Positions 24,367-42,621 of a stretch of 64,000 bases of DNA are shown piece by piece; the first letter of the stretch is position 1; the number at the start of each line of letters is the position of its first letter. The notes beneath the pieces were generated by a model, which was given only the letters and a program-made list of their open reading frames with translations, searched no databases and was not told the origin of the DNA. The position numbers and the translations under genes are program-made. This stretch comes from an uncultured Cohaesibacter sp. (lineage in GTDB: Bacteria; Pseudomonadota; Alphaproteobacteria; Rhizobiales; Cohaesibacteraceae): the NCBI RefSeq assembly GCF_963667045.1, contig NZ_OY762934.1, forward strand, positions 2,411,501 through 2,475,500, given 5' to 3'.

Positions 24367-24951
24367 TCACACCACAGAAAAATACAGATACGTAGCGGGA
24401 TCATCGTTGCCAGCTTTGATTGCCCAAGCTTGATGAACATCGTCGGTCTCCAAGGCAAATTGCTCGCATCGCTCATTGTAGCGCAGCCGCTCTTCCTTGT
24501 GGCAGAAAAAGGTCGAAGCAATAAGCCCCCCGATTCTCATGTCTGCTTCATCTTCACTAATATTGCGTGCGTCGCCTCTAGCTTTGTCCAGTTTAGATGC
24601 AAGGACGACACTAGAGAATTGCGTCTTTTGCATCTGTTTGAATTCAAAAGACCAGCTGCGTTTGGAGTTTGAGATCCACAAATCGGCACGCCCCCAACTT
24701 TTTTTTCTTCGATCCGGCTTGGATCTTTTGGGTGTTGCGTATTCAGTCAGCGCTATGAACCCAGCCATATTTGCAGCCGACAGCAAATTGCCAACGCTGG
24801 TCACTTCACTGAATGCGAACAAATCATCATCTTCAACATAATTATGGTAGCGTTTGCGGATGACCAAAGCTTTATCTATCCATTTTTTCCAGGTCCTATA
24901 TTCTTCGCGCCGTTTGTCACCCTTAAGGTGTTCAATTGCATAAATCGACAA
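24367..24951 (-). CDS. Cargo protein, possible PD-(D/E)xK nuclease fold
   Basis: 194 residues, transcribed against the phage operons and visibly richer in A+T. Residues about 88-105 read GRADLWISNSKRSWSFEFK, that is, Asp90 then Glu103-Phe-Lys105 on successive strands, matching the D...ExK core of PD-(D/E)xK enzymes. No other domain is recognised. It lies between the Mor-like gene and the lysis module, framed by two integrase remnants, so it is imported cargo. A nuclease or restriction-like defence role is possible but only motif-based. Confidence 0.6.
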   Translation of the reverse strand: MSIYAIEHLKGDKRREEYRTWKKWIDKALVIRKRYHNYVEDDDLFAFSEVTSVGNLLSAANMAGFIALTEYATPKRSKPDRRKKSWGRADLWISNSKRSWSFEFKQMQKTQFSSVVLASKLDKARGDARNISEDEADMRIGGLIASTFFCHKEERLRYNERCEQFALETDDVHQAWAIKAGNDDPATYLYFSVV

Positions 24952-27161: not shown

Positions 27162-27662
27162 ATGGCGCATAAAGACGAAAAAAGGACCGATGCCCGCAGG
27201 GCCTACATCCGGGATCAGCAGTCTGTTCCGGTCATTGCCTTGTCTATTGGTGTATCCGAGGCCACCGTGCGCCGCTGGAAGCGAGACGCCAAGCAGAGTG
27301 GTGACAACTGGGATGTGGCGCGAGCCGCGCACATGATGGCGGGTGAAGGGCTGGAGACGGTTGTCTCCGGTGTGGTCGAGCAGTTCGTCACCCTGTTCAA
27401 AGCCACCATTGAACAATTGCAGGATGATGGCAACCTGTCGCCCGAAGAGCGCGTCAAGGCCATGGCCAGCCTTTCGGATGCCTTCAACAAGATGGTTGCC
27501 AGTGCCGGTCGTGTCGCGCCGAAGATTTCCGAGCTTGGTGTCGCCAACGATGTCTTGCAGCGGCAGGCCGAGTTCATTCGTGAATTCTACCCCCAGCATG
27601 CCGCAGCCTTTCTGGAAATCCTCGAGCCCTTTGGTGAGCGCCTTGTCGAGGTTTACGGATGA
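27162..27662 (+). CDS. DUF1804 family protein, probable small terminase subunit
   Basis: 166 residues. The N-terminal helix-turn-helix (VPVIALSIGVSEATVRRWKR) and helical remainder match DUF1804, encoded just before the large terminase in Mu-like phages (Mu gp27). It should recognise phage DNA at the start of packaging. It overlaps the terminase start by four bases. Confidence 0.85.
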   Translation: MAHKDEKRTDARRAYIRDQQSVPVIALSIGVSEATVRRWKRDAKQSGDNWDVARAAHMMAGEGLETVVSGVVEQFVTLFKATIEQLQDDGNLSPEERVKAMASLSDAFNKMVASAGRVAPKISELGVANDVLQRQAEFIREFYPQHAAAFLEILEPFGERLVEVYG

Positions 27663-29305
27663 GCAAACCAGCCCTTAAGAAGCAGCTCAAATCAAAGGAG
27701 TTCCTGAACGGCTTGACCGACATGGCGGAAGCCTTCCGCCTGAAGATCGAGCTGGAGGTGGAAGCCTTTCCGATTGATCCCCGGTTGCGCGCCGAAAGGC
27801 AAAAGAAGGTTACGGATGCCGAGACGGGCTATCGCTTTTTTGCCGAGACCTATTTCCCGCACTATCTGACATCAGCGCCATCCATGTTGCATGAGCATCT
27901 TTATGAAGACCTGCCGATGATGGTGACTACGAAAGACGGCCAGAAACGGCTTGTCATCGCGCCGCGAGGATCTGCCAAATCCACCCATATCAGTCTCATT
28001 TTCCCGCTCTGGTGCATCGTCCGAGGGCTCAAGCATTATATTGTCCTGATCATGGATGCCTTCGAGCAGGCAGCCGTGATGCTGGAAGCCCTCAAGGCCG
28101 AGCTGGAGGTTAATCCGCGCCTCAAATATGACTTCCCCGAGATCTTTGGGCAGGGCCGTGTCTGGCGTGAGGGCGACATCGTCACCCGTAACAACGTCAA
28201 GGTGGAGGGCTTTGGTACAGGCAAGAAAATCCGTGGCCGTCGCCATGGCCCTTATCGCCCGGACCTGGCCATCCTTGACGATATCGAAAACGACGAGAAT
28301 GTTGCCAGCCCCAAACAGCGCGACAAGTTGGAAAGCTGGATCGCCAAGGCTGTTCTCAAGCTCGGCCCGACCGACGGCTCCATGGACGTGCTTTATGCCG
28401 GGACCGTCTTGCACTTTGATGCGGTTATCGTCCGCTATTCCAAGAAGCCCGGATGGCATGTCACCGAGTTCCGCGCCATCCTCCAGTGGCCGGATGATAT
28501 GGCGCTCTGGGATGCATGGGAAGAAACCTATCTCAATGAGGGCGAGCCGGAGGCTGATGCCTTCTATGTTGCTAACAAGGAAGCGATGGATAAGGGTGCG
28601 GTTCTCAATTGGCCGGCCAATCACTCTTTGCTTTTCCTGATGAAGGAGCGTGCGGGCGATCATGCCGCCTTTGAAAGCGAGTATCAGAACAAGCCCCTCG
28701 CGCTCGATAATCCCTTCCAGAGCATCACATGGTGGGTGCGGATCAATCGGGACTGGTTGTTCTTTGGCGCTGTCGACCCATCCCTTGGCAAGAATAATCG
28801 CAATCGCGACCCATCGGCCATATTGGTTGGGGCCTATGACAAGGAAAGCGCCATTCTCGATGTGGTGGAAGCTTCCATACGCCGTCGCGTTCCGGATCTC
28901 ATCATCGCTGACATCATTTCCATGCAGCGGGAATATCAATGCCAGATGTGGTTTGCCGAGGTCGTGCAGTTTCAGGAATTCCTGCGCACTGAATTGATCA
29001 AGCGAGCGGCAAATGCTGGCCTTGCCCTGCCTGCTTATCCAGTCTCTCCGATCATTGACAAGAACCTGCGCATCGAGCGGCTTCAGATCCCGATCTCCGA
29101 TGGGACGATCCGCCTGCATAAGAGCCAGCAGACCTTGGTCGACCAGCTTCAGCAATGGCCGATGGCGGATCATGATGACGGGCCGGACTGTCTGGAAATG
29201 CTCTGGAAGCACACTATTGAAATGGCTGCCACCACTCTGACCGCCACCAGTATCACCACTGCCGCCCCGACCAGTCAGGGCACGTTAGGAGGCTATCGAC
29301 TATGA
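27659..29305 (+). CDS. Large terminase subunit (Mu gp28-like)
   Basis: 548 residues. The ATPase has Walker A APRGSAKST (about 101-109) and an Asp-rich LAILDDIENDENVASPKQRD segment as Walker B/coupling region. The C-terminal RNase H-like nuclease begins with FFGAVDPSLGKNNRNRDPSA and continues with ILDVVEASIRRR. It packages DNA headfully through the portal, cutting host DNA beyond the prophage ends as in Mu. It overlaps both neighbours by four bases. Confidence 0.92.
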   Translation: MSKPALKKQLKSKEFLNGLTDMAEAFRLKIELEVEAFPIDPRLRAERQKKVTDAETGYRFFAETYFPHYLTSAPSMLHEHLYEDLPMMVTTKDGQKRLVIAPRGSAKSTHISLIFPLWCIVRGLKHYIVLIMDAFEQAAVMLEALKAELEVNPRLKYDFPEIFGQGRVWREGDIVTRNNVKVEGFGTGKKIRGRRHGPYRPDLAILDDIENDENVASPKQRDKLESWIAKAVLKLGPTDGSMDVLYAGTVLHFDAVIVRYSKKPGWHVTEFRAILQWPDDMALWDAWEETYLNEGEPEADAFYVANKEAMDKGAVLNWPANHSLLFLMKERAGDHAAFESEYQNKPLALDNPFQSITWWVRINRDWLFFGAVDPSLGKNNRNRDPSAILVGAYDKESAILDVVEASIRRRVPDLIIADIISMQREYQCQMWFAEVVQFQEFLRTELIKRAANAGLALPAYPVSPIIDKNLRIERLQIPISDGTIRLHKSQQTLVDQLQQWPMADHDDGPDCLEMLWKHTIEMAATTLTATSITTAAPTSQGTLGGYRL

Positions 29306-30912
29306 GCCGCAAATCCCGCAGAAATCGTGGTCGCAACCGGACGGCTCAGCAGGCAAGCGCGTTGCCCAAGCCGGAGACGAATGCCTCAGTGCCCAGAAAC
29401 GGGGGGCAGCTCATTGCGACGGCACAGAATGATATCACCATTCCCTTCTATTCGGACATTCTGGTTCCGCAGGATCCGACCATCAAGGAGAAAGGCCCGC
29501 ACAAGGGCCTCAAACTCTATGATGAGGTAATGCAGGATGGCCGAGCGAAGGCAACGCTCAGCAAGCGCTATTCCAAGATTACGCGCCGTGAATGGATGGT
29601 GAAGGCGGCCAGCGAAGACGACCGGGACGTAAAGGCCAAGGAAGGCATTGAGGCAATACTCGATGCGCTGCCCTTTGATGCCATTTGCAAGGATCTGGCG
29701 AAAGCGATCCTCAAGGGCTTTGCGATCTCGGAGATTGTCTGGGGGCGCAATGAAGATGGGCTTGTCGTGCCAGTCAGGATCAAGTCCCATGATCCGATGC
29801 GCTTTGCCTTTGACAAGGACTGGAATCCGCGTCTGCTGACACCGGGCAATAGCATTGAAGGGGAAGCCGTTCCCAAACGGAAATTCATCACGCACCGGTT
29901 TGGGGCGGAAGGCAACAATCCCTATGGCCTGGGCCTTGGTTCCGTCTTGTTCTGGCATGTGCTGTTCAAGCGCGAGGGAGTTGGCTTCTGGATGAAATTC
30001 CTGGACAAGTTTGCCGCCCCCATTCCCTTTGGCAAGTTCGCGGTCGGTACTCCGAACAATGAGCAAAAGAAACTGCTCAACTCCCTGATTGCCATGGTGC
30101 AACAGGGCGCTTTGGTTGCGCCAATCGGAACCGAGGTCAGCTTTCTGGAGGCTGCCCGTTCTGGCAACGCCTCTTATGAGGAATGGTGTCGGTTCTGGGA
30201 TGAACAGACATCCGAGGTGGTTCTCGGCAGCACGCTTTCGACCAGCGTCAAGGGGCAAGGCTCTCGCGCCGCCGCCCAAACCCATGCCGATGAGACCGAC
30301 AGTATCGTTGACGATGACTGCGACCAGCTTTCCGATACGCTGAATGAAACCCTGCTGCGTTGGATTACCGAGCTGAACTGGCCGGGAGCCAAACCGCCAA
30401 CCGTCTGGCGTCCACGTCCTCGCAATGAGAGCGAGGAGGAAGATCAGAAGAAGAAGACAGCAGAGCGTCGCCAGTCTGACATTCGTTCCCTTGATGCTGC
30501 GCGCAGACAGGGCTTCGAGCCAAAGAACCTGCAGGAATGGCTCTCGAGCGTATTTGATGCGGAAATGATCCCGGTTGAGGTGACGGTTCCTTCTGACGAT
30601 CAGCAAAGCGCCTTTGCTGATGATGAAGGTCCGGTTGCTCACCTGATTGACCAGTTGGAAGATCTGGCCGGGCCTCAACAGCAGATCTGGCTTGAGCGGA
30701 TCCGCGAGAGATTGACCGGAGTTGCCAGCTTTGGTGAAGCCTCCAAGGTTTTGCTGGATCTGTCTGGCCAATTGGAAATTGATCCGATGGGCCGCATTCT
30801 GGGCGATGCCATCGCGCTTTCCGAGATCACGGGCCGGTCAGACATCATTGACGGGACGGGGATTTATCCTTCCAAGGCTGTCGGCTCAAAAAAAAAGACC
30901 AAAATCCTGTAA
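29302..30912 (+). CDS. Portal protein, DUF935 family (Mu gp29-like)
   Basis: 536 residues. Typical blocks: FYSDILVPQDPTIKEKG, LKLYDEVMQDGRAKATLSKR, and GSTLSTSVKGQGSRAAAQTH near residue 315. It forms the dodecameric ring through which DNA enters the head. The last codons are GGC TCA AAA AAA AAG ACC AAA ATC CTG TAA, with a nine-A run containing the heptamer A AAA AAG in the portal frame, which would move ribosomes into the MuF frame. Confidence 0.92.
   Translation: MSRKSRRNRGRNRTAQQASALPKPETNASVPRNGGQLIATAQNDITIPFYSDILVPQDPTIKEKGPHKGLKLYDEVMQDGRAKATLSKRYSKITRREWMVKAASEDDRDVKAKEGIEAILDALPFDAICKDLAKAILKGFAISEIVWGRNEDGLVVPVRIKSHDPMRFAFDKDWNPRLLTPGNSIEGEAVPKRKFITHRFGAEGNNPYGLGLGSVLFWHVLFKREGVGFWMKFLDKFAAPIPFGKFAVGTPNNEQKKLLNSLIAMVQQGALVAPIGTEVSFLEAARSGNASYEEWCRFWDEQTSEVVLGSTLSTSVKGQGSRAAAQTHADETDSIVDDDCDQLSDTLNETLLRWITELNWPGAKPPTVWRPRPRNESEEEDQKKKTAERRQSDIRSLDAARRQGFEPKNLQEWLSSVFDAEMIPVEVTVPSDDQQSAFADDEGPVAHLIDQLEDLAGPQQQIWLERIRERLTGVASFGEASKVLLDLSGQLEIDPMGRILGDAIALSEITGRSDIIDGTGIYPSKAVGSKKKTKIL
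30891..30897 (+). promoter_or_regulatory. Candidate -1 frameshift site A AAA AAG at the portal/MuF junction
   Basis: The heptamer is in phase with the portal frame and identical to the E. coli dnaX slippery site. A weak Shine-Dalgarno-like AAGG lies at 30874-30877, 13 bases upstream. A -1 slip continues into MuF as ...KKK-DQNPVSFAEVG, giving a fusion of about 964 residues. Confidence 0.6.
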
Positions 30913-32195
30913 GCTTTGCTGAGGTTGGGCCATTTGATGAGGCGTTGGACTTCCATCGCCAGAAAGTGCGCCTGCCAACCCGCACCTGGTCTGATCTGCT
31001 CCATCATGGCCATGACCGGGCTTTTGTTGTGGCCGGTGCGCAAAAGGATGCACTGCTGGAAGACTTCCAGCAAGCCATTGATGATGCAATCGCCAAGGGA
31101 ATGCCGCTCAAGGGTTGGCTTGATAAGGATGACACCTATCATCCCGGATTCATTGATCGCTTTGACGAGATCGTCAAAAAGCACGGCTGGGATTACAATG
31201 GGGGCCGCAACTGGCGTGCCCGTGTCATCTATGAGACCAACCTGAAAACCGCCTATGCTGCCGGTCGCTATAAGCAGATGACCGACCCGGCCACGCTCAA
31301 GGCATTTCCGTACTGGCAGTATAAGCATGCCTGGGAACGCATTCCGCTTCATCCGCGCGAGGAGCATGAAGCGTGGGATGGGCTGATCCTCCGGGCCGAT
31401 GATCCATGGTGGCAAACCTATTATCCGCCTAATGGCTGGAAATGCGGTTGTGGGGTGCGGCCTGTCAGTCGCGCCAAACTCAAACGGATGGGCAAGGAAA
31501 CACCCGATACCGCACCGTCCATCCAGCACGTACGCAGAAGCGATCCTGGCACAGGCGAAGAGATTGATTATCCTGCCGGTGTCGATATGGGCTGGGCCTA
31601 TGCGCCAGGACGAACATGGGCGGACGGAACCATTCCGCGTGAGCTGCAACGCAGTAACCCAAAACAACTCACCTTACCCCATATTGATCCTTTACCTCAG
31701 ATGAGTGCGATTGCCCGTCCCGTGCAAGCCGAGGTGCTGCCCAAAGGGCTGGAGGATGCAGATTATGTTTCGGCGTTCTTGTCTGAATTTGGCGCTGATG
31801 AAAGTGAGCCTGTGCTGTTTCGGGATAAAGCAGGCCAAGTGCTCGTTATCGGTGAGGACTTGTTCAAGCGGCCCGATGGCTCGCAGAAGCTCAATTCTTC
31901 CCGCTCTGTTCAGCTCTTGCGCCTTGCCGAGGCACTCAAAGATCCAGACGAGATCTGGGTAGATTGGGAATGGCATAGCCATCTCAAGAAATGGGTGCTG
32001 AAACGCCGCTATCTCCGGGCTGCTCCCAATCTGGCAGGTCTCAGTGTCTTTGAATGGGGGCAGGATGGTTGGAGTGGCACCACCATCTACAATGCGGAAA
32101 CAGGCCGAAAGCGAAAACCAAACCTCAACCAGATCAATACATGGCGTCGTGGGGCGCTGTTGTTCCGTCGCGCTTTGTCTGCTGACGAAAACTAA
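30897..32195 (+). CDS. MuF (gpF-like) head morphogenesis protein with C-terminal PBECR2-type nuclease domain
   Basis: About 432 residues in the -1 frame relative to the portal. The conserved MuF N-terminus (GPFDEALDFHRQKVRLPT, then HDRAFVVAGAQKDALLEDF) starts upstream of the only in-frame start-like codon (TTG at 30945), and an upstream stop at 30849 leaves no ATG or GTG, so it is probably made by frameshifting. The MuF core has WRARVIYETNLKTAYAAGRY and WKCGCGVRPVS. The C-terminal 130 residues (LFRDKAGQVLVIGEDLFKR to LNQINTWRRGALLFRR) match the phage Barnase-EndoU-ColicinE5/RelE-like nuclease family 2, suggesting an RNase carried in the virion. Confidence 0.85.
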   Translation, partial: DQNPVSFAEVGPFDEALDFHRQKVRLPTRTWSDLLHHGHDRAFVVAGAQKDALLEDFQQAIDDAIAKGMPLKGWLDKDDTYHPGFIDRFDEIVKKHGWDYNGGRNWRARVIYETNLKTAYAAGRYKQMTDPATLKAFPYWQYKHAWERIPLHPREEHEAWDGLILRADDPWWQTYYPPNGWKCGCGVRPVSRAKLKRMGKETPDTAPSIQHVRRSDPGTGEEIDYPAGVDMGWAYAPGRTWADGTIPRELQRSNPKQLTLPHIDPLPQMSAIARPVQAEVLPKGLEDADYVSAFLSEFGADESEPVLFRDKAGQVLVIGEDLFKRPDGSQKLNSSRSVQLLRLAEALKDPDEIWVDWEWHSHLKKWVLKRRYLRAAPNLAGLSVFEWGQDGWSGTTIYNAETGRKRKPNLNQINTWRRGALLFRRALSADEN

Positions 32196-32266: not shown

Positions 32267-32303
32267 CAAGCTCTAATATAGCAAATCAGCAAGGATGTTT
32301 CAA

Positions 32304-32807
32304 ATGCCGTTCCTGAGCTTCACATATGACTATGCTTCCGCCGACCGGGAAATCCGCCGTCTTATCGACCGGATCGAAGACAAGGCTGCGGTTCATCGTG
32401 TCATTGGCATGGCGCTCTATGACCAGACGATGGATCGGTTCGAGAAGGAGGAAGATCCGAACGGCAACAAATGGCCCCCCCTGACGCCACTCACTCTCTC
32501 AAACCGTCGACAGCCCAAAGGGATCCTTCGTGATAGCGGCGAGCTGATCCGCTCGATCCATTTCACAGCCAGCGCTACCAATGCTGAAGTCGGTACCAAT
32601 CTCAATCATCCCAAAGTTTGGGTCATGCAACATGGTGCGACCATCAAACCACGCCGGTTCCAATCCCTGCGCATTCCTGTTGCTGGTGGGGCAGAAGGCT
32701 ACGTCTTCAGCAAGGGTGTGAAGATCCCAGCGCGGCCCTATATCGGCATCGGGAGACAGGACGAAGAGGTAATCCGGGAAGAGCTGGAGGGGTATTTGGG
32801 CGAGTGA
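32304..32807 (+). CDS. Phage virion morphogenesis protein (gpG-like)
   Basis: 167 residues from the ATG at 32304, eight bases after AAGGA; an ATG at 32295 overlaps that ribosome site. It shows the gpG family pattern: RFEKEEDPNGNKWPPLTP, RRQPKGILRDSGELIRSI, GATIKPRR and ARPYIGIG. In Mu gpG acts in tail/head completion. The KAP cargo gene follows on the other strand, separating gpG from gpI. Confidence 0.88.
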   Translation: MPFLSFTYDYASADREIRRLIDRIEDKAAVHRVIGMALYDQTMDRFEKEEDPNGNKWPPLTPLTLSNRRQPKGILRDSGELIRSIHFTASATNAEVGTNLNHPKVWVMQHGATIKPRRFQSLRIPVAGGAEGYVFSKGVKIPARPYIGIGRQDEEVIREELEGYLGE

Positions 32808-33008
32808 GAGTTTTGGCCAATAGTCATAGTTGGCTTTTTAAACGAGTTAGACCATTAACAAAGGCGGCCCATTCCTGCCGTTCGATCTTTGATGATCTGT
32901 TGCAAGGTATCCCCGTTTGCGGACTTTTGTTCAGAGTACAGCAGAGCGTCCCAGCCAAGAAACACTACTTGCTGACTGCAGCCAAGTATGTGAGCACATC
33001 AAAAAAAA

Positions 33009-36000
33009 TCAGAAGTCGAGTGTCATCCATTTTTCCATGAAGGTCTTTGCACGTCGCCCATGTATGAGCTCGCTGACTTGTTTGATACGGTCTTTGTCGC
33101 CGGACTTTTTTGCAAAATCCTTGCATGAGGCCTCGACGCGATCCTTGGTAGTCGATTCTGCAGATTTTATGAAATCGGCGACCTTTGCTCTTCCTAGGCC
33201 GAAAAAGATATTCAAAACCTCCGCGTTATCGTTCTCCAACGCTGGACAAAGAAGACTACGCACAAGATTATCTTTTTGCTTTTTGCTTACTCGATCATCG
33301 GTGACCACAAGCTTTGACAGCAATGCAGGGAACACATCAACTGCGTGAACCAATGAAACAGCAGTTACGTTGTTGATTTCATCGCGTAGCCTACGAAGAA
33401 CATCACCATGATGCTTTTCTTCAATTGCGAGGAACAGATCGTCTCCATTCAAATCAACATTTTCAAATTCGGGATCACCACGCAACAAGCCAATGGCTGT
33501 TTTGACGAGAAGCTCCTTGAAGTCTGGAGATTCCATGATGAAATTGGAAGCTTCCACCCTTTGGCACAGTAGGTCGGAAATTCCATCGGATTCCTTGATA
33601 TGCGTCTCCCATTCAGCTGTTTCTATCGCCTGAAGCAATTGATCTACATGTTGATGCAGCTTACCCCAGCCGGAGCTCGTTAGCGTTTCTGTGTCTTGCA
33701 GAACCTTAGGGGATACCTGAGATAAGGTGATCTTCTTTACACTTTCGTCGGTAACGCGATTTGCAAACCGAGAAAGGAATCCGCTAAATTCGTCAGAATT
33801 CAGAACGGATTTCAAATAATTGTAGTTGTTTAAGATGGAGGGCAAGGTCAGCCATGGCAATGGATTTAGTTTAAACGCAGTCCGAACGACCTTATCAGCA
33901 AGGTTTTTCCTTAAACTAGACTCGTCGGCACCCAATTTTACCCAGTTGAACATCTTAGAGGTGTCCCGTGCCGTGATTGCGGTAATATTTGCCTGTTTAG
34001 CTGAAATATTTTGTTCCCCGTCGAAAAGTGCTTTGAACGCTTTGTAAGCGTCGGAGCTATCTGCAACCATATGACCGTTTGGATTGCGCTTCATTGGCTG
34101 AGGTAGGTCTCCGTCTAGATAGTCTTGGGCGGCCAAAAACAGCACATATCCAACCTCGTCTGCTTTTAGCTCGTTCAACTCTTTAAATATATTTTGGTAG
34201 AAACGGCCAGATTCGAACAGGTTGCCTAATTGCACATCTTTGCGTTGCTTTGCGTCTGCATAAAACCAAACGTCGCAAAGCAGCTTAAGAAGGCTCGCAT
34301 AGTCATCATCAAACTCGGCCTCCATTGCGAGAACCTCGACCAATGAGTTGGCAATTTCGACCCACTTTTCGGGTTTGAGCAGTTTAACTGAGTTGAATTC
34401 GGAAAAAGCTTTGACGGCAAATCTCGGGTCTTTTGTAGCAGCTTCTTCCAGATAACTATCGTTGTCTTCTGTAAAGGCAATTTTGGACGGGTTAAGCTTA
34501 AGTAATTCGATGTTGGATTCGTTGAGGCTCCCAGCTAATCCAAAAACGAAATCTGGTCGATTTGGAATACGCAGGTTTGCAAGCCTCTTTGTGAAGGCTA
34601 CCCCCATGTCTAGCGGCTCCAACTTCTCTTGCAATACCGTCAGGAAACCAGCTAATTTGCCTCCATATTCGGCATCAGCAGATTCATTATCTTTCAGTCC
34701 TAAATTTATTTTAGTCATGATGTTTAGAAGAATCTGATCAATATCCTCTTTTTCGCAGATATCTAAGATCAGCACCTCTCTTTCATAATTCTTAGCGGAC
34801 AAATTGAATGCAGGTAGTTGATTAAAGGCCGATACAATAGCTGCGCAAAAGTGTTGTTTTGCTTGCCCCTTGTACACTTTTGCCAGCTCCGAAAAGTTCG
34901 CAACGGCCTGTCCATACTCATCTGTCCCAACCCATTCACGAACTGAGTCTTGGACAACATCAGCAACGCGGTCTTCAAAGCCTGGAGCCGAAGACAGGTC
35001 AACGAGCGCTTTTTCATTGTCATCAGTCGCCGCCGTTTTAATTTTGTCGTCCAACAAAATTTGAAAGGCTAGCTCGGGTTCAACATTAAATGTTAGAGCA
35101 GCCATATTGCGATCTAGGTCGGGATCTGCGGCCAACGAAGCTATTTTGCTGTCCACGATCTTACCTTCAGTAAGCATTTGAGGGTTTGCTTCGAGTCGAC
35201 TTCTAAACGTCACGAATGCAGCAATTGTCGGCAAGCTAAATCGCCCCTGATGTAAGGTGAATTCGCCCGACAAATCATTGATAAACGATATAATTTGTCT
35301 TGGTGTTGCGACGCCGTTAGCCGATTGGATTAGTACTGTGAAAATGCGATAGACGCGGAAAAGAACATCTTCGTCGCATTGCTTCGGAAGAGCCTCTTTC
35401 ATTTTCTCAACGAAAAACTCGCGAACATTGGACATGACCGGCGGAGAGACCGTCAAAACCTCGTCAAAGGTTTTAGAAAACAGCTCACGAGAACCAAGTG
35501 ATAGCGACAAGATCTCGAGCTCGCCCCCTGACCCTTTCTGCAAACCGGCGTCGTCATCTTTCTGCTGTACTAGATGATGGTCGTATGGAACAATCGCCGT
35601 AATGGTTTCTCGCCCTTGGTGTGGCTTTCCATTCCCTCTTGAAAAGATAGATCGAACTAAGGCCCAGTAATCCGGTATTTCAGAGGTCGGTAGCCTGTCG
35701 ATGTTATCGAGGACGAAAACAACTCTATGGTTTCCGGTCTGGACCGTTGCCAGTATTTCCCGCAGCGTCTCACGAAATTCGTAGTCGTTTGGGTCAATCT
35801 CACGAATTTGTTGAGTTACTTTGTGATCTGAATGTTGCTTGGAGCTAACTAGTAACGTTTGAGAAAGTGCATCCCAATAGGAGTAGTCCTCCGTAATTTT
35901 TCGACCTCGCTGCCACCTAATTACAGCCCAGAGAAAGGTAAAAATTACAAAGCCTATCAGAATGGTGAATGGCAACGTGCCCACAAATGGCCCTTCGATT

Positions 36001-36518
36001 TTCTCCTGTGCGACATCATCGAATACTGATTTTGTCCAGAAATAAAAGACTGGCAAAAATGGAAGTAAAACAAGAACAACGACTCCGTGAAAATCCAATT
36101 TTGGTCGATTGTTTGTCTCGACTTCTGTCGTTTTCCCTTTAACACTCTTCTCTATTTTATCAAGTTTCTTATCTTTAGATTTGAACTCTTCTCTAGCCCA
36201 GTGCAGAAGGTGTTCCAAAAATGAGCGACGGAACGCGGAACCTTGAGATTTCCAAATGTCAAAAGTGAAAAAGTGATAGATGCGTGGCTTGCTGTCTTGA
36301 TTTTGTTGCTTTCTAAGAATGTCTTCTGCGATTTCAACGACGCTAGATTTTCCGCTTCCCCACGGTCCATCCAAGCCAATTGCTCGATCTTCCTGATCGA
36401 ATTCGGCGATGGCCTTGGACAATGCAAAAGCTGTTCTTTCATGGCCCTTTCCGTGAAATCGATCTTCTCGCGAGGGCTTATCAACAAGTATGTTGCGCTC
36501 AATCTCAGTGGTCTTCAT
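33009..36518 (-). CDS. KAP-family P-loop NTPase with two membrane segments (cargo)
   Basis: 1,169 residues, on the strand opposite to the structural genes and clearly more A+T-rich. Walker A is GPWGSGKSS (51-59); two hydrophobic segments (about 143-161 and 179-200) are inserted before Walker B VVFVLDNIDRLP (266-277), exactly the KAP NTPase layout, in which helices within the P-loop domain anchor it to the inner face of the membrane. The remaining 800 residues are helical and unassigned. KAP NTPases occur on plasmids, phages and in defence islands. It sits between gpG and gpI, so it is cargo and not needed for the virion. Defence or superinfection exclusion is a plausible role. Confidence 0.82.
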   Translation of the reverse strand: MKTTEIERNILVDKPSREDRFHGKGHERTAFALSKAIAEFDQEDRAIGLDGPWGSGKSSVVEIAEDILRKQQNQDSKPRIYHFFTFDIWKSQGSAFRRSFLEHLLHWAREEFKSKDKKLDKIEKSVKGKTTEVETNNRPKLDFHGVVVLVLLPFLPVFYFWTKSVFDDVAQEKIEGPFVGTLPFTILIGFVIFTFLWAVIRWQRGRKITEDYSYWDALSQTLLVSSKQHSDHKVTQQIREIDPNDYEFRETLREILATVQTGNHRVVFVLDNIDRLPTSEIPDYWALVRSIFSRGNGKPHQGRETITAIVPYDHHLVQQKDDDAGLQKGSGGELEILSLSLGSRELFSKTFDEVLTVSPPVMSNVREFFVEKMKEALPKQCDEDVLFRVYRIFTVLIQSANGVATPRQIISFINDLSGEFTLHQGRFSLPTIAAFVTFRSRLEANPQMLTEGKIVDSKIASLAADPDLDRNMAALTFNVEPELAFQILLDDKIKTAATDDNEKALVDLSSAPGFEDRVADVVQDSVREWVGTDEYGQAVANFSELAKVYKGQAKQHFCAAIVSAFNQLPAFNLSAKNYEREVLILDICEKEDIDQILLNIMTKINLGLKDNESADAEYGGKLAGFLTVLQEKLEPLDMGVAFTKRLANLRIPNRPDFVFGLAGSLNESNIELLKLNPSKIAFTEDNDSYLEEAATKDPRFAVKAFSEFNSVKLLKPEKWVEIANSLVEVLAMEAEFDDDYASLLKLLCDVWFYADAKQRKDVQLGNLFESGRFYQNIFKELNELKADEVGYVLFLAAQDYLDGDLPQPMKRNPNGHMVADSSDAYKAFKALFDGEQNISAKQANITAITARDTSKMFNWVKLGADESSLRKNLADKVVRTAFKLNPLPWLTLPSILNNYNYLKSVLNSDEFSGFLSRFANRVTDESVKKITLSQVSPKVLQDTETLTSSGWGKLHQHVDQLLQAIETAEWETHIKESDGISDLLCQRVEASNFIMESPDFKELLVKTAIGLLRGDPEFENVDLNGDDLFLAIEEKHHGDVLRRLRDEINNVTAVSLVHAVDVFPALLSKLVVTDDRVSKKQKDNLVRSLLCPALENDNAEVLNIFFGLGRAKVADFIKSAESTTKDRVEASCKDFAKKSGDKDRIKQVSELIHGRRAKTFMEKWMTLDF

Positions 36519-41090: not shown

Positions 41091-41315
41091 ATGTCTGACG
41101 CAAGCAAATCCGAGTTGGTCTTTAGTGACTATCTCTATTCCGGACCAGTCCAGTCGGTTTGTCTCAAGGCCAAAGGCACCGATTGCAGCATGGTCATCTT
41201 TCTGGATGAAACCCTTCATCCGGGCAAAACCTACAGCCTTCTGGATGGCCACCCGGTTGTTGAAGGCTGGAAGGCCATGAAGCTGATCAAGGCAAAAGGA
41301 GTTACCAATGGCTGA
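41091..41315 (+). CDS. Small Mu gp38-like protein
   Basis: 74 residues from the ATG at 41091 with AGGAGG immediately upstream. Beta-rich (LVFSDYLYSGPVQSVCLKAK, GKTYSLLDGHPVV). A short gene between gp37 and the sheath is standard in Mu-like phages. Overlaps the sheath start by eight bases. Confidence 0.7.
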   Translation: MSDASKSELVFSDYLYSGPVQSVCLKAKGTDCSMVIFLDETLHPGKTYSLLDGHPVVEGWKAMKLIKAKGVTNG

Positions 41316-42621
41316 GCGCAAATATGGTGCCGAGATTGTCACGGTCGATGATGGTGGCACGACTGTTACCGAGCTGAAAGCGGCAACGGCCCTGTTGGTT
41401 GGCACTGCCCCCATTCAGGACGTTCATGCAACTGCTGAAGAGCGTGCTGCCTACATCAACAAGAAGATCCTGATCAAGCGTCGTGACCAGATCGCAGAGT
41501 ATTTCGGGCCGGTGCGCGATGGCTACACCATTCCGGCAGCGCTGCATCAGATGTTCGATCAGGAAGGCACGCAAGGGATCGGCACCATTTGTGTGGTCAA
41601 CGTGTTTGATCCGGACACACATGTCACAGACGGAAGCCCGGATCCGAGTGTGGTCACCAATCTTGAAATTATCGGCACTTTTGATGCCGCTGGGCAGCCA
41701 TCGGGTCTTCAGCATGCCTATGCCTGCTATCAATCCTTTGGCTGGTTCCCAAAATTCCTTCTTGTCCCCGGCTTTTCGACCCTGACCGGTGTTCGGACTG
41801 CCATGCAGACCATCGCCAACAAGGTGCGGGCGCGCTTCTTTCTGGATGCGCCCTTGGGTGTTTCGGCCCAACAGGTCATTGAAGCGCGAGGGGACGGCGG
41901 TGACTTTGACTGGCAGGTCAGTTCCCGTCGTGCCGTTGGTTGCTGGCCCTATCTGAAGTTTGTTGATCTGGATCCGAACTCTGAGACTGCCGGTGAGAAG
42001 GTGCCTTTGTGGTATAGCCCGGTGCTGGCCGCCATCTGGATGCGCTATATCGTTGAGGTTGGCTATCATCACAGCCCGTCCAATCGGGAAATCATCTGCG
42101 AGGAACCTGCCCAGGAATGCCTCTATATTCCCGGTGACTTCACCTCCGATGTGCAGGAAATGCGCGCCAACGGCATTGTCACTTGCGAAGAGCGCCATGG
42201 CAAAGGGCCTCACACCTCGGGCAACCGCTCAATGGCGTGGCCAACCGATACCAATATGCGCAACTTCCTGCATGTGCAGCTCATCGAAGATGTGCTCCAT
42301 GAGGCGGTGCTTCACTATCTCGACCAGTGGAAGGACCGCAACGGTAATCCGGCCAATATCGAATTGGTCGAGGATCGCATCAATGCCTATGGGCTGGGCA
42401 AAACCACCGGCAAGGATCCCGCTCTTTCCGGTTTCCGGTTCGCCTTTGATCGCCAGCAGACGACCACGGCGACGGTTGCCGAAGGGCATTATTACTGGAC
42501 CATGAAATGGGCTCCGGTCGGTGTCATGGAATGGCTGACCGTCAATGACTGGATCGATACCGACCTGTTGGGCGATCCTTTAGGGCTTTCCACCACAGAC
42601 ACATCAACCGATGTGGCATAA
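41308..42621 (+). CDS. Contractile tail sheath protein (Mu gpL-like)
   Basis: 437 residues. N-terminal YGAEIVTVDDGGTTVTELKA and ATALLVGTAPIQD, the SFGWFPKFLLVPGFST block and NRSMAWPTDTNMRNFLHVQL are sheath-family features. It shows the phage is a myovirus. Sheath precedes tube as usual. Confidence 0.93.
   Translation: MAERKYGAEIVTVDDGGTTVTELKAATALLVGTAPIQDVHATAEERAAYINKKILIKRRDQIAEYFGPVRDGYTIPAALHQMFDQEGTQGIGTICVVNVFDPDTHVTDGSPDPSVVTNLEIIGTFDAAGQPSGLQHAYACYQSFGWFPKFLLVPGFSTLTGVRTAMQTIANKVRARFFLDAPLGVSAQQVIEARGDGGDFDWQVSSRRAVGCWPYLKFVDLDPNSETAGEKVPLWYSPVLAAIWMRYIVEVGYHHSPSNREIICEEPAQECLYIPGDFTSDVQEMRANGIVTCEERHGKGPHTSGNRSMAWPTDTNMRNFLHVQLIEDVLHEAVLHYLDQWKDRNGNPANIELVEDRINAYGLGKTTGKDPALSGFRFAFDRQQTTTATVAEGHYYWTMKWAPVGVMEWLTVNDWIDTDLLGDPLGLSTTDTSTDVA

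Follow-up and report, generated by a model that had tools for sequence, protein, structure and literature searches.

Tail assembly chaperones provide most of the known cases of recoding in tailed phages, and in the frameshift of the lambda G/GT type the fusion is the minor product. Here we describe a candidate for recoding in the head genes of a Mu-like prophage whose tail genes are of the contractile type, which lies in a 64 kb stretch of DNA (the window) from an uncultured Cohaesibacter sp. (contig NZ_OY762934.1). At the overlap of the genes for the portal protein and for MuF, a run of nine A (A9) is placed such that a slip into the −1 frame would join the two proteins, and comparison with relatives suggests that the run is a programmed slip site, used perhaps by RNA polymerase rather than by the ribosome. 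The lambda G/GT pair is likewise a phage structural gene pair with a conserved, mostly −1 shift (PMC4378225, PMC7302621). The present case concerns the head portal and MuF, however, and what is kept is a homopolymer of near-fixed length in all codon phases rather than a heptamer. The dnaX genes of Thermus thermophilus (transcriptional slippage on A9) and Escherichia coli (ribosomal frameshifting on A AAA AAG) are similar in that an A9 run or a heptamer lies in the coding frame and two products arise per gene (PMC3711429). In dnaX the shift shortens the protein, whereas at the phage junction it would add an entire downstream protein, and counterparts of the Shine-Dalgarno (SD) motif and the downstream structure of E. 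coli dnaX appear to be mostly absent here.

A connection of portal and MuF is known in other forms. In SPP1 (gp6/gp7) and among the MuF polymorphic toxins, MuF is bound to the portal, is targeted to the procapsid interior and may have a toxin-like C terminus (PMC6316719, PMC5576092), but in SPP1 the genes are separate and the binding is non-covalent, whereas a covalent fusion is predicted here. In Microbacterium phages of clusters EA3, EA5, EA8 and EB, portal and MuF are one polypeptide and are given as gene fusions (PMC7302621); the ten fused relatives found by us retain A9 or A10. The same junction as in the window is present in genes 36-37 of Rhodobacter phage RcapMu, with A8. The notes of its GenBank record call the portal short, state that a 'possible +1 frameshift would allow readthrough' and indicate that no good ribosome-binding site precedes the start of MuF. 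They address the short portal, as a +1 event; a slip site, its conservation or a fusion with MuF is not stated in the part of these notes that was covered. The record also marks a 'potential -1 frameshift' at position 837 in RcapMu35, the gene before the portal. Among the matches listed in a search of mostly open-access literature, there was no description of portal/MuF frameshifting or slippage. In the accessible text, the sole frameshift passage of PMC8601537 deals with tail chaperones and the frameshifting in PMC3398947 concerns a sigma-factor pair; the word 'frameshift' is absent from the accessible part of PMC10783043, and 'portal' is absent from the first 300,000 of the 475,107 characters of the review PMC5009743 and from the main text of PMC3711429. 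Within the literature covered, the kind of recoding is known, and its portal-MuF member with the features described below seems to be undescribed.

The junction in the window is made up as follows (all on the forward strand).

29302 to 30912, forward: portal open reading frame (Mu gp29-like, 536 residues), the default product (Pfam PF06074, E 3e-95; PHROG 113, portal)
30601 to 30849, forward: C-terminal domain of the portal of about 95 residues (about residues 434-516), delimited by hhalign against the RcapMu-type stretch
30852 to 32195, forward: MuF reading frame, −1 relative to the portal, open throughout
30888 to 30896, forward: A9 run, the putative slip site, from the sequence and the comparison across relatives
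30897 to 32195, forward: part of the MuF frame that can be joined to the portal in a predicted fusion of 964 residues
30910 to 30912, forward: TAA stop of the default portal frame, four sense codons after the run
31212 to 31457, forward: Phage_Mu_F domain (Pfam PF04233, E 2.1e-12, 48.2 bits, cut-off 29.6)
31773 to 32168, forward: PBECR2, a nuclease-like C-terminal domain of MuF (Pfam PF18810, E 3.9e-29, 101.7 bits, cut-off 27.1)

The portal scores 319.8 bits against Portal_Mu (PF06074; curated cut-off 23.9) and its reading frame ends with GGC TCA AAA AAA AAG ACC AAA ATC CTG TAA. In the MuF frame, the earliest start-like codons are TTG at 30945 and GTG at 30966, and ATG, GTG and TTG are absent upstream of 30945; the TTG itself sits within the conserved N-terminal stretch of MuF. 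The original prediction for this DNA had named a portal frame that ends at 30912, nine A in the overlap, a MuF frame open in −1 without a start-like codon before 30945, and a fusion of about 964 residues, and the sequence bears out each of these points. Apart from the A9, the window contains no run of at least nine A or T, the next being A8 at 33001 and T8 at 24699, and nine A in a row are matched only 10 times on both strands of the 5,241,083-base genome; the position of the run at the portal-MuF junction is therefore not a matter of chance. With a MuF domain and a C-terminal toxin-like domain in one protein, MuF has the domain composition expected of the family of MuF polymorphic toxins.

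Portal-MuF loci were then gathered from genomes, viral contigs and phage records by similarity to a few queries, which makes the sample non-random, and a script recorded for each locus the frames of portal and MuF together with stops, starts and runs. Of 199 loci, the first pass could place 183, among them 142 distinct ones; the remaining 16 had no usable match to one of the two genes. The final set has 198 placed loci, of which 155 are distinct; loci were counted as distinct if they differ in the 360 bases that surround the beginning of the MuF core. A run of at least eight A is present at the junction in 63 distinct loci and absent from 92. Many of the 63 are related; at 90% nucleotide identity they collapse into 46 clusters and at 75% into 27. 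The run is found in two positions, which define a late type (14 loci, including the window, L005) and an early type (49 loci, including RcapMu, L002).

The length of the run is nearly fixed: 57 of the 63 loci have A9, three A8 (RcapMu, L052 and L053) and three A10 (L007, L110 and L157), and A9 is present in 26 of the 27 clusters at 75% identity. Apart from the junction runs, the 447 kb of these 63 loci contain just two A8/T8 runs and not a single A9/T9; of 2905 lysine codons outside the run, 898 are AAA. Judged from these sequences, the A9 run and the overlap are kept across a large group of Mu-like phages far above what codon usage would give; the named hosts of the run-bearing phages are alphaproteobacteria. 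In the six further genomes of the window's genus that have a readable junction, the run is A9 in four (L050, L051, L054, L055) and A8 in two (L052, L053). Shorter runs are not a hidden class, since among the 92 run-less loci an A7 lies in the overlap only once (L010); an A8 is near but outside the overlap in L011 and L179.

In contrast to its length, the codon phase of the run is variable. The 29 runs in phase 1 are all A9, and phase 3 comprises 30 runs (27 A9, two A8, one A10), whereas phase 2 is represented by four runs only (one A8, one A9 in the broken locus L009 and two A10). The last codon of the 27 phase-3 A9 runs is AAC in 19 and AAG in eight, and the base after the run is C in 42 of the 63 loci, G in 20 and T in one. 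Reading into MuF takes a −1 shift (one A more or two fewer) in 50 of the 63 loci and the loss of one A (+1) in two (L052 and L053); ten loci are open straight through, fused in frame, and one (L009) is broken. In the 50 unfused −1 loci, including the window, the default portal stop is about two codons past the run (median, as estimated by the script). PBECR2 was found in all 45 run-bearing MuFs scanned (of 63) and in all 16 run-less ones scanned (of 92); as a reason for slippage this domain is therefore unsupported.

The two positions of the run lie on either side of one domain. In the late type the run is downstream of the C-terminal domain of the portal, 14-32 codons before the MuF core. In the early type the distance is 101-115 codons; the unfused portal reading frame stops soon after the run, and a homologue of the portal C-terminal domain follows in the MuF frame (hhalign probability 98.8 over 93 columns). 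Two early relatives without a run, L124 and L170, begin MuF with this domain, whose ATG overlaps the portal stop (ATGA), which argues that a domain homologous to the portal C terminus has moved between the portal and MuF genes. In a quick tree built from 129 MuF cores, selected from the 155 by length and score and including all 63 run-bearing ones, the late and early types fall into two clades (Shimodaira-Hasegawa-like approximate likelihood ratio test, SH-aLRT, 100) that meet at an unresolved fork with six ATG-start relatives. Presence or absence of the run requires four changes on this tree, and its history may be a single origin followed by losses or two origins.

The default product has changed as well. 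Within the early clade, being fused requires six changes, at least four of which are forced by starred branches, although the stars of this quick tree merit less trust. In two aligned groups the frame is altered by an indel next to an intact run: the fused L097, L098, L100 and L102 are shorter by two bases immediately 5' of it than L094 and L096, with A9 in all of them, and the fused L152 has one extra base just 3' of it compared with L153, with A9 in both. The fused L162, L164 and L099 differ from near unfused loci by multiple indels on both sides. Between L115 and L158 there is no indel in the aligned bases and the cause of the frame change is elsewhere. In the nine fused A9 loci, one extra A would lead to a stop 5-7 codons after the first codon of the run (23 codons in L007), so that plain portal and fusion are possible from either default.

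Start codons distinguish the two types. Of the 13 late unfused loci, none has an ATG after the run and ten also lack GTG and TTG there, although in L008, L009, L052 and L053 the MuF frame offers a start codon upstream of the run. In contrast, 38 of the 40 early unfused loci have at least one of these three codons between run and MuF core. The late type is thus nearly startless and the early type is not. Unfused loci without a run have an ATG in 81 and some start codon in 90 of 91 cases, in a stretch that extends at most 80 codons upstream of the MuF core and so differs from the stretch from the run to the first core codons that was used for run-bearing loci. The check put forward with the original prediction, whether both the run and the missing start are kept in relatives, therefore came out positive for the run in 63 of the 155 distinct loci and for the missing start largely in the late type, but not in the early type, which mostly has starts.

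These comparisons strongly support the view that portal and MuF are joined by a frame change at the A-run, as had been predicted, and we regard it as highly probable that a slip at the run makes a portal-MuF fusion, whatever it is that slips. The heptamer A AAA AAG, which had been named as the signal for a −1 frameshift, did not survive: it is in phase in the window but in only nine of the 63 run-bearing loci, and as a conserved signal it is rejected because relatives keep nine A in any codon phase. The reading we favour, with a probability of roughly 55% for the statement as a whole, is that A9 is a programmed slip site on which slippage of RNA polymerase makes a minor portal-MuF fusion. RNA polymerase would slip on the nine A, so that part of the mRNAs gain one A or lose two; on these, ribosomes would run from portal into MuF and produce the fusion, 964 residues long in the window and with the predicted junction peptide GSKKKDQNPVSF, while unaltered mRNAs would give plain portal. 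Two of the features by which transcriptional slippage of the A9 type is recognized, a frame-transition run of about nine or more A on the coding strand and independence of codon phase, are found here.

The main competitor is programmed −1 ribosomal frameshifting, in which the ribosome slips on A AAA AAA or A AAA AAG of an unaltered mRNA and makes the same fusion; we consider this quite possible but less likely. Polymerase slippage is favoured over it because A9 dominates in phases 1 and 3 alike, independent of codon phase, and because a heptamer in phase 3 needs only seven A, yet 27 of the 30 runs there have nine. The fused loci (10 of 63), which keep the run, the indels beside an unchanged A9 and the location of the run on either side of one homologous domain argue in the same direction; efficient slippage would also make the recurrent changes of the default frame less puzzling. 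Moreover, the stimulators of a dnaX-type ribosomal signal, as it had been proposed for this junction, appear scarce. An SD-like motif (4 or 5 bases, from a motif list of our own) was found within 22 nucleotides upstream in only two of the 63 loci. Predicted downstream structure appears weak, with a mean z of −0.40 over 50 nucleotides (six of 63 below −2; window +0.89) and of −0.93 over 90 nucleotides (11 of 63 below −2; window −0.65), pseudoknots being outside the folding model. The host also has a tRNA-Lys with anticodon CTT beside two with TTT (Rfam tRNA search, 48 matches; ARAGORN). A tRNA-Lys with this anticodon lowers slipping on A AAA AAG, as is known from work on dnaX.

Several observations weigh against polymerase slippage or against a fusion as the only source of MuF. 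Every A9 contains a heptamer A AAA AAA, which is in phase in all 63 run-bearing loci, whereas A AAA AAG accounts for nine. The direction is −1 in 50 of the 52 unfused readable loci, as frameshifting predicts; however, relatives with an ATG start and an ATGA overlap also have MuF in −1, and the direction may therefore be inherited. RcapMu, an inducible phage (PMC10783043, PMC5488378), has A8 in phase 2, just enough for a heptamer, and A8 has been called a non-slippery length (PMC1088944). Two GC-rich loci that are related to each other, L131 and L134 (IMG 3300033112), have MuF in −1 and lack an A-run; their overlap contains a single in-phase C CCC CCT, which would suit ribosomes. In the overlap, the MuF frame of L134 is devoid of ATG, GTG and TTG while that of L131 has GTGs. 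A scan of relatives of L134 returned 11 loci, ten of which were classified, and all eight besides these two have a start codon in the MuF frame. Furthermore, frameshifting on A AAA AAC is proven for a cluster of insertion sequences in which no stimulator has been established (PMC4066793). The run itself varies in the late clade, with A8 in L052 and L053 and with A10 in the fused L007; under a pure length constraint such variation would not be expected. Finally, of the 40 early unfused loci only 25 lack ATG between run and core and only two lack ATG, GTG and TTG, so that ATG is present in 15; if CTG, ATT and ATC are counted too, none of the 53 unfused run-bearing loci is free of all six codons. 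A separate MuF start may thus exist, above all in the early type.

That MuF is made only in this separate way, by initiation at a weak or atypical codon (TTG 30945 or one still rarer) in coupling with termination of the portal, and that the A-run is incidental, nevertheless appears improbable. It would fit the ATG of 81 of the 91 unfused run-less relatives, often overlapping the portal stop as ATGA, the TTG at 30945 in the window and its counterpart in L051 and L052, and the presence of some start codon in most early loci. On the other hand, all 13 late unfused loci are without ATG after the run, ten of them also without GTG and TTG, and retention of the run far above codon usage speaks against an incidental tract. 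For TTG 30945 itself, the six loci of the genus compared have TTG in three (L005, L051, L052) and CTG in the other three (L050, L053, L054), although the MuF of L050 is 98% identical to that of the window, and a start there would drop an alanine invariant in eight relatives together with the partly kept PFxEA; a MuF start at this codon is disfavoured. A phase-variable contingency tract, in which DNA replication slippage toggles MuF, seems just as unlikely. The late clade lends it some support, with A8 in L052 and L053 against A9 in L050, L051, L054 and L055. Length differences are also seen in four near phage copies in the draft genome of Pannonibacter sp. SL95 (L007, L008, L009 and L010), which have A10, A9, A9 after a missing base, and A7; these may reflect real variation, decay or assembly error. 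However, phase variation predicts a varying length between fixed flanks, and the early clade has the reverse, since in two aligned groups the indels flank an A9 that stays the same; 57 of 63 runs are exactly A9. Homopolymers are prone to sequencing and assembly errors, and an error in a gene that is truly fused or truly separate could mimic the junction. As the source of the A9 this is rejected, its chance being negligible: four of the six further genomes of the genus and phages from many projects, including isolate phage records, carry the identical run.

Returning to polymerase slippage, its consequence would be mixed portal dodecamers that carry one or a few MuF domains at the C-terminal side of the portal, inside the head. 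Crown and wing of the portal dodecamer lie within the head (PMC11445458), and the C-terminal tail of the portal would lead inward. The structural models are weak: the mean pLDDT (predicted local distance difference test) is 58 for the portal and 70 for MuF. The best matches of the portal model in the PDB are the portals of JBD30 and Mu, its closest relatives of solved structure; in the portal model, residues 509-536 are below 50 and nothing is structured beyond residue 519. The MuF model matched nothing in the PDB at E 0.001 or better, and a comparison of the MuF profile with solved chains gave no match at E 0.1. The covalent MuF in the ring would replace the non-covalent portal-MuF binding of the SPP1 gp6/gp7 kind, and the ratio of portal to MuF in the head, as proposed in the original prediction, could be fixed in this way. 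It is tempting to speculate that polymerase slippage controls the make-up of the portal ring across the lineage, such that a few subunits carry a fused nuclease-like MuF and selection holds the run at about nine A while phase, place and default product have changed repeatedly; we put the chance of this wider statement slightly short of even.

If polymerase slippage does join the two proteins, recoding would link the head portal to MuF and offer a means of equipping each head with a small and constant number of proteins that are internal or ejected, and MuF toxins would gain a covalent route into the virion. It would also account for the RcapMu MuF without a good start and for the short-looking portal of that phage. 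The natural series of junctions, with three phases, two positions, two default frames and one main length, could separate polymerase slippage from ribosomal slippage.

The genes next to the junction and the remaining gene set are those of a Mu-like phage: the window has genes for a repressor, a transposase, a DNA transposition protein, terminase, portal, protease, major head protein, tail sheath, tape measure, baseplate and fibre. The direct neighbours are the following.

27659 to 29305, forward: large terminase, 5' of the portal (PHROG 38)
32295 to 32807, forward: Mu G-like virion morphogenesis protein, 3' of MuF (Pfam PF05069)

The phage of the window has a tail sheath (41308-42621) and RcapMu is siphovirus-like (PMC5488378); the head module with the putative slip site spans tail types. 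On the opposite strand, a gene at 33009-36518 (reverse), flanked by those for the Mu G-like protein and the protease, encodes a KAP-family P-loop protein of 1169 residues (PF07693, E 3.7e-19), with a PADLOC match to PifA over residues 17-124 (E 2.1e-13), and is a candidate cargo or defence gene within the head module.

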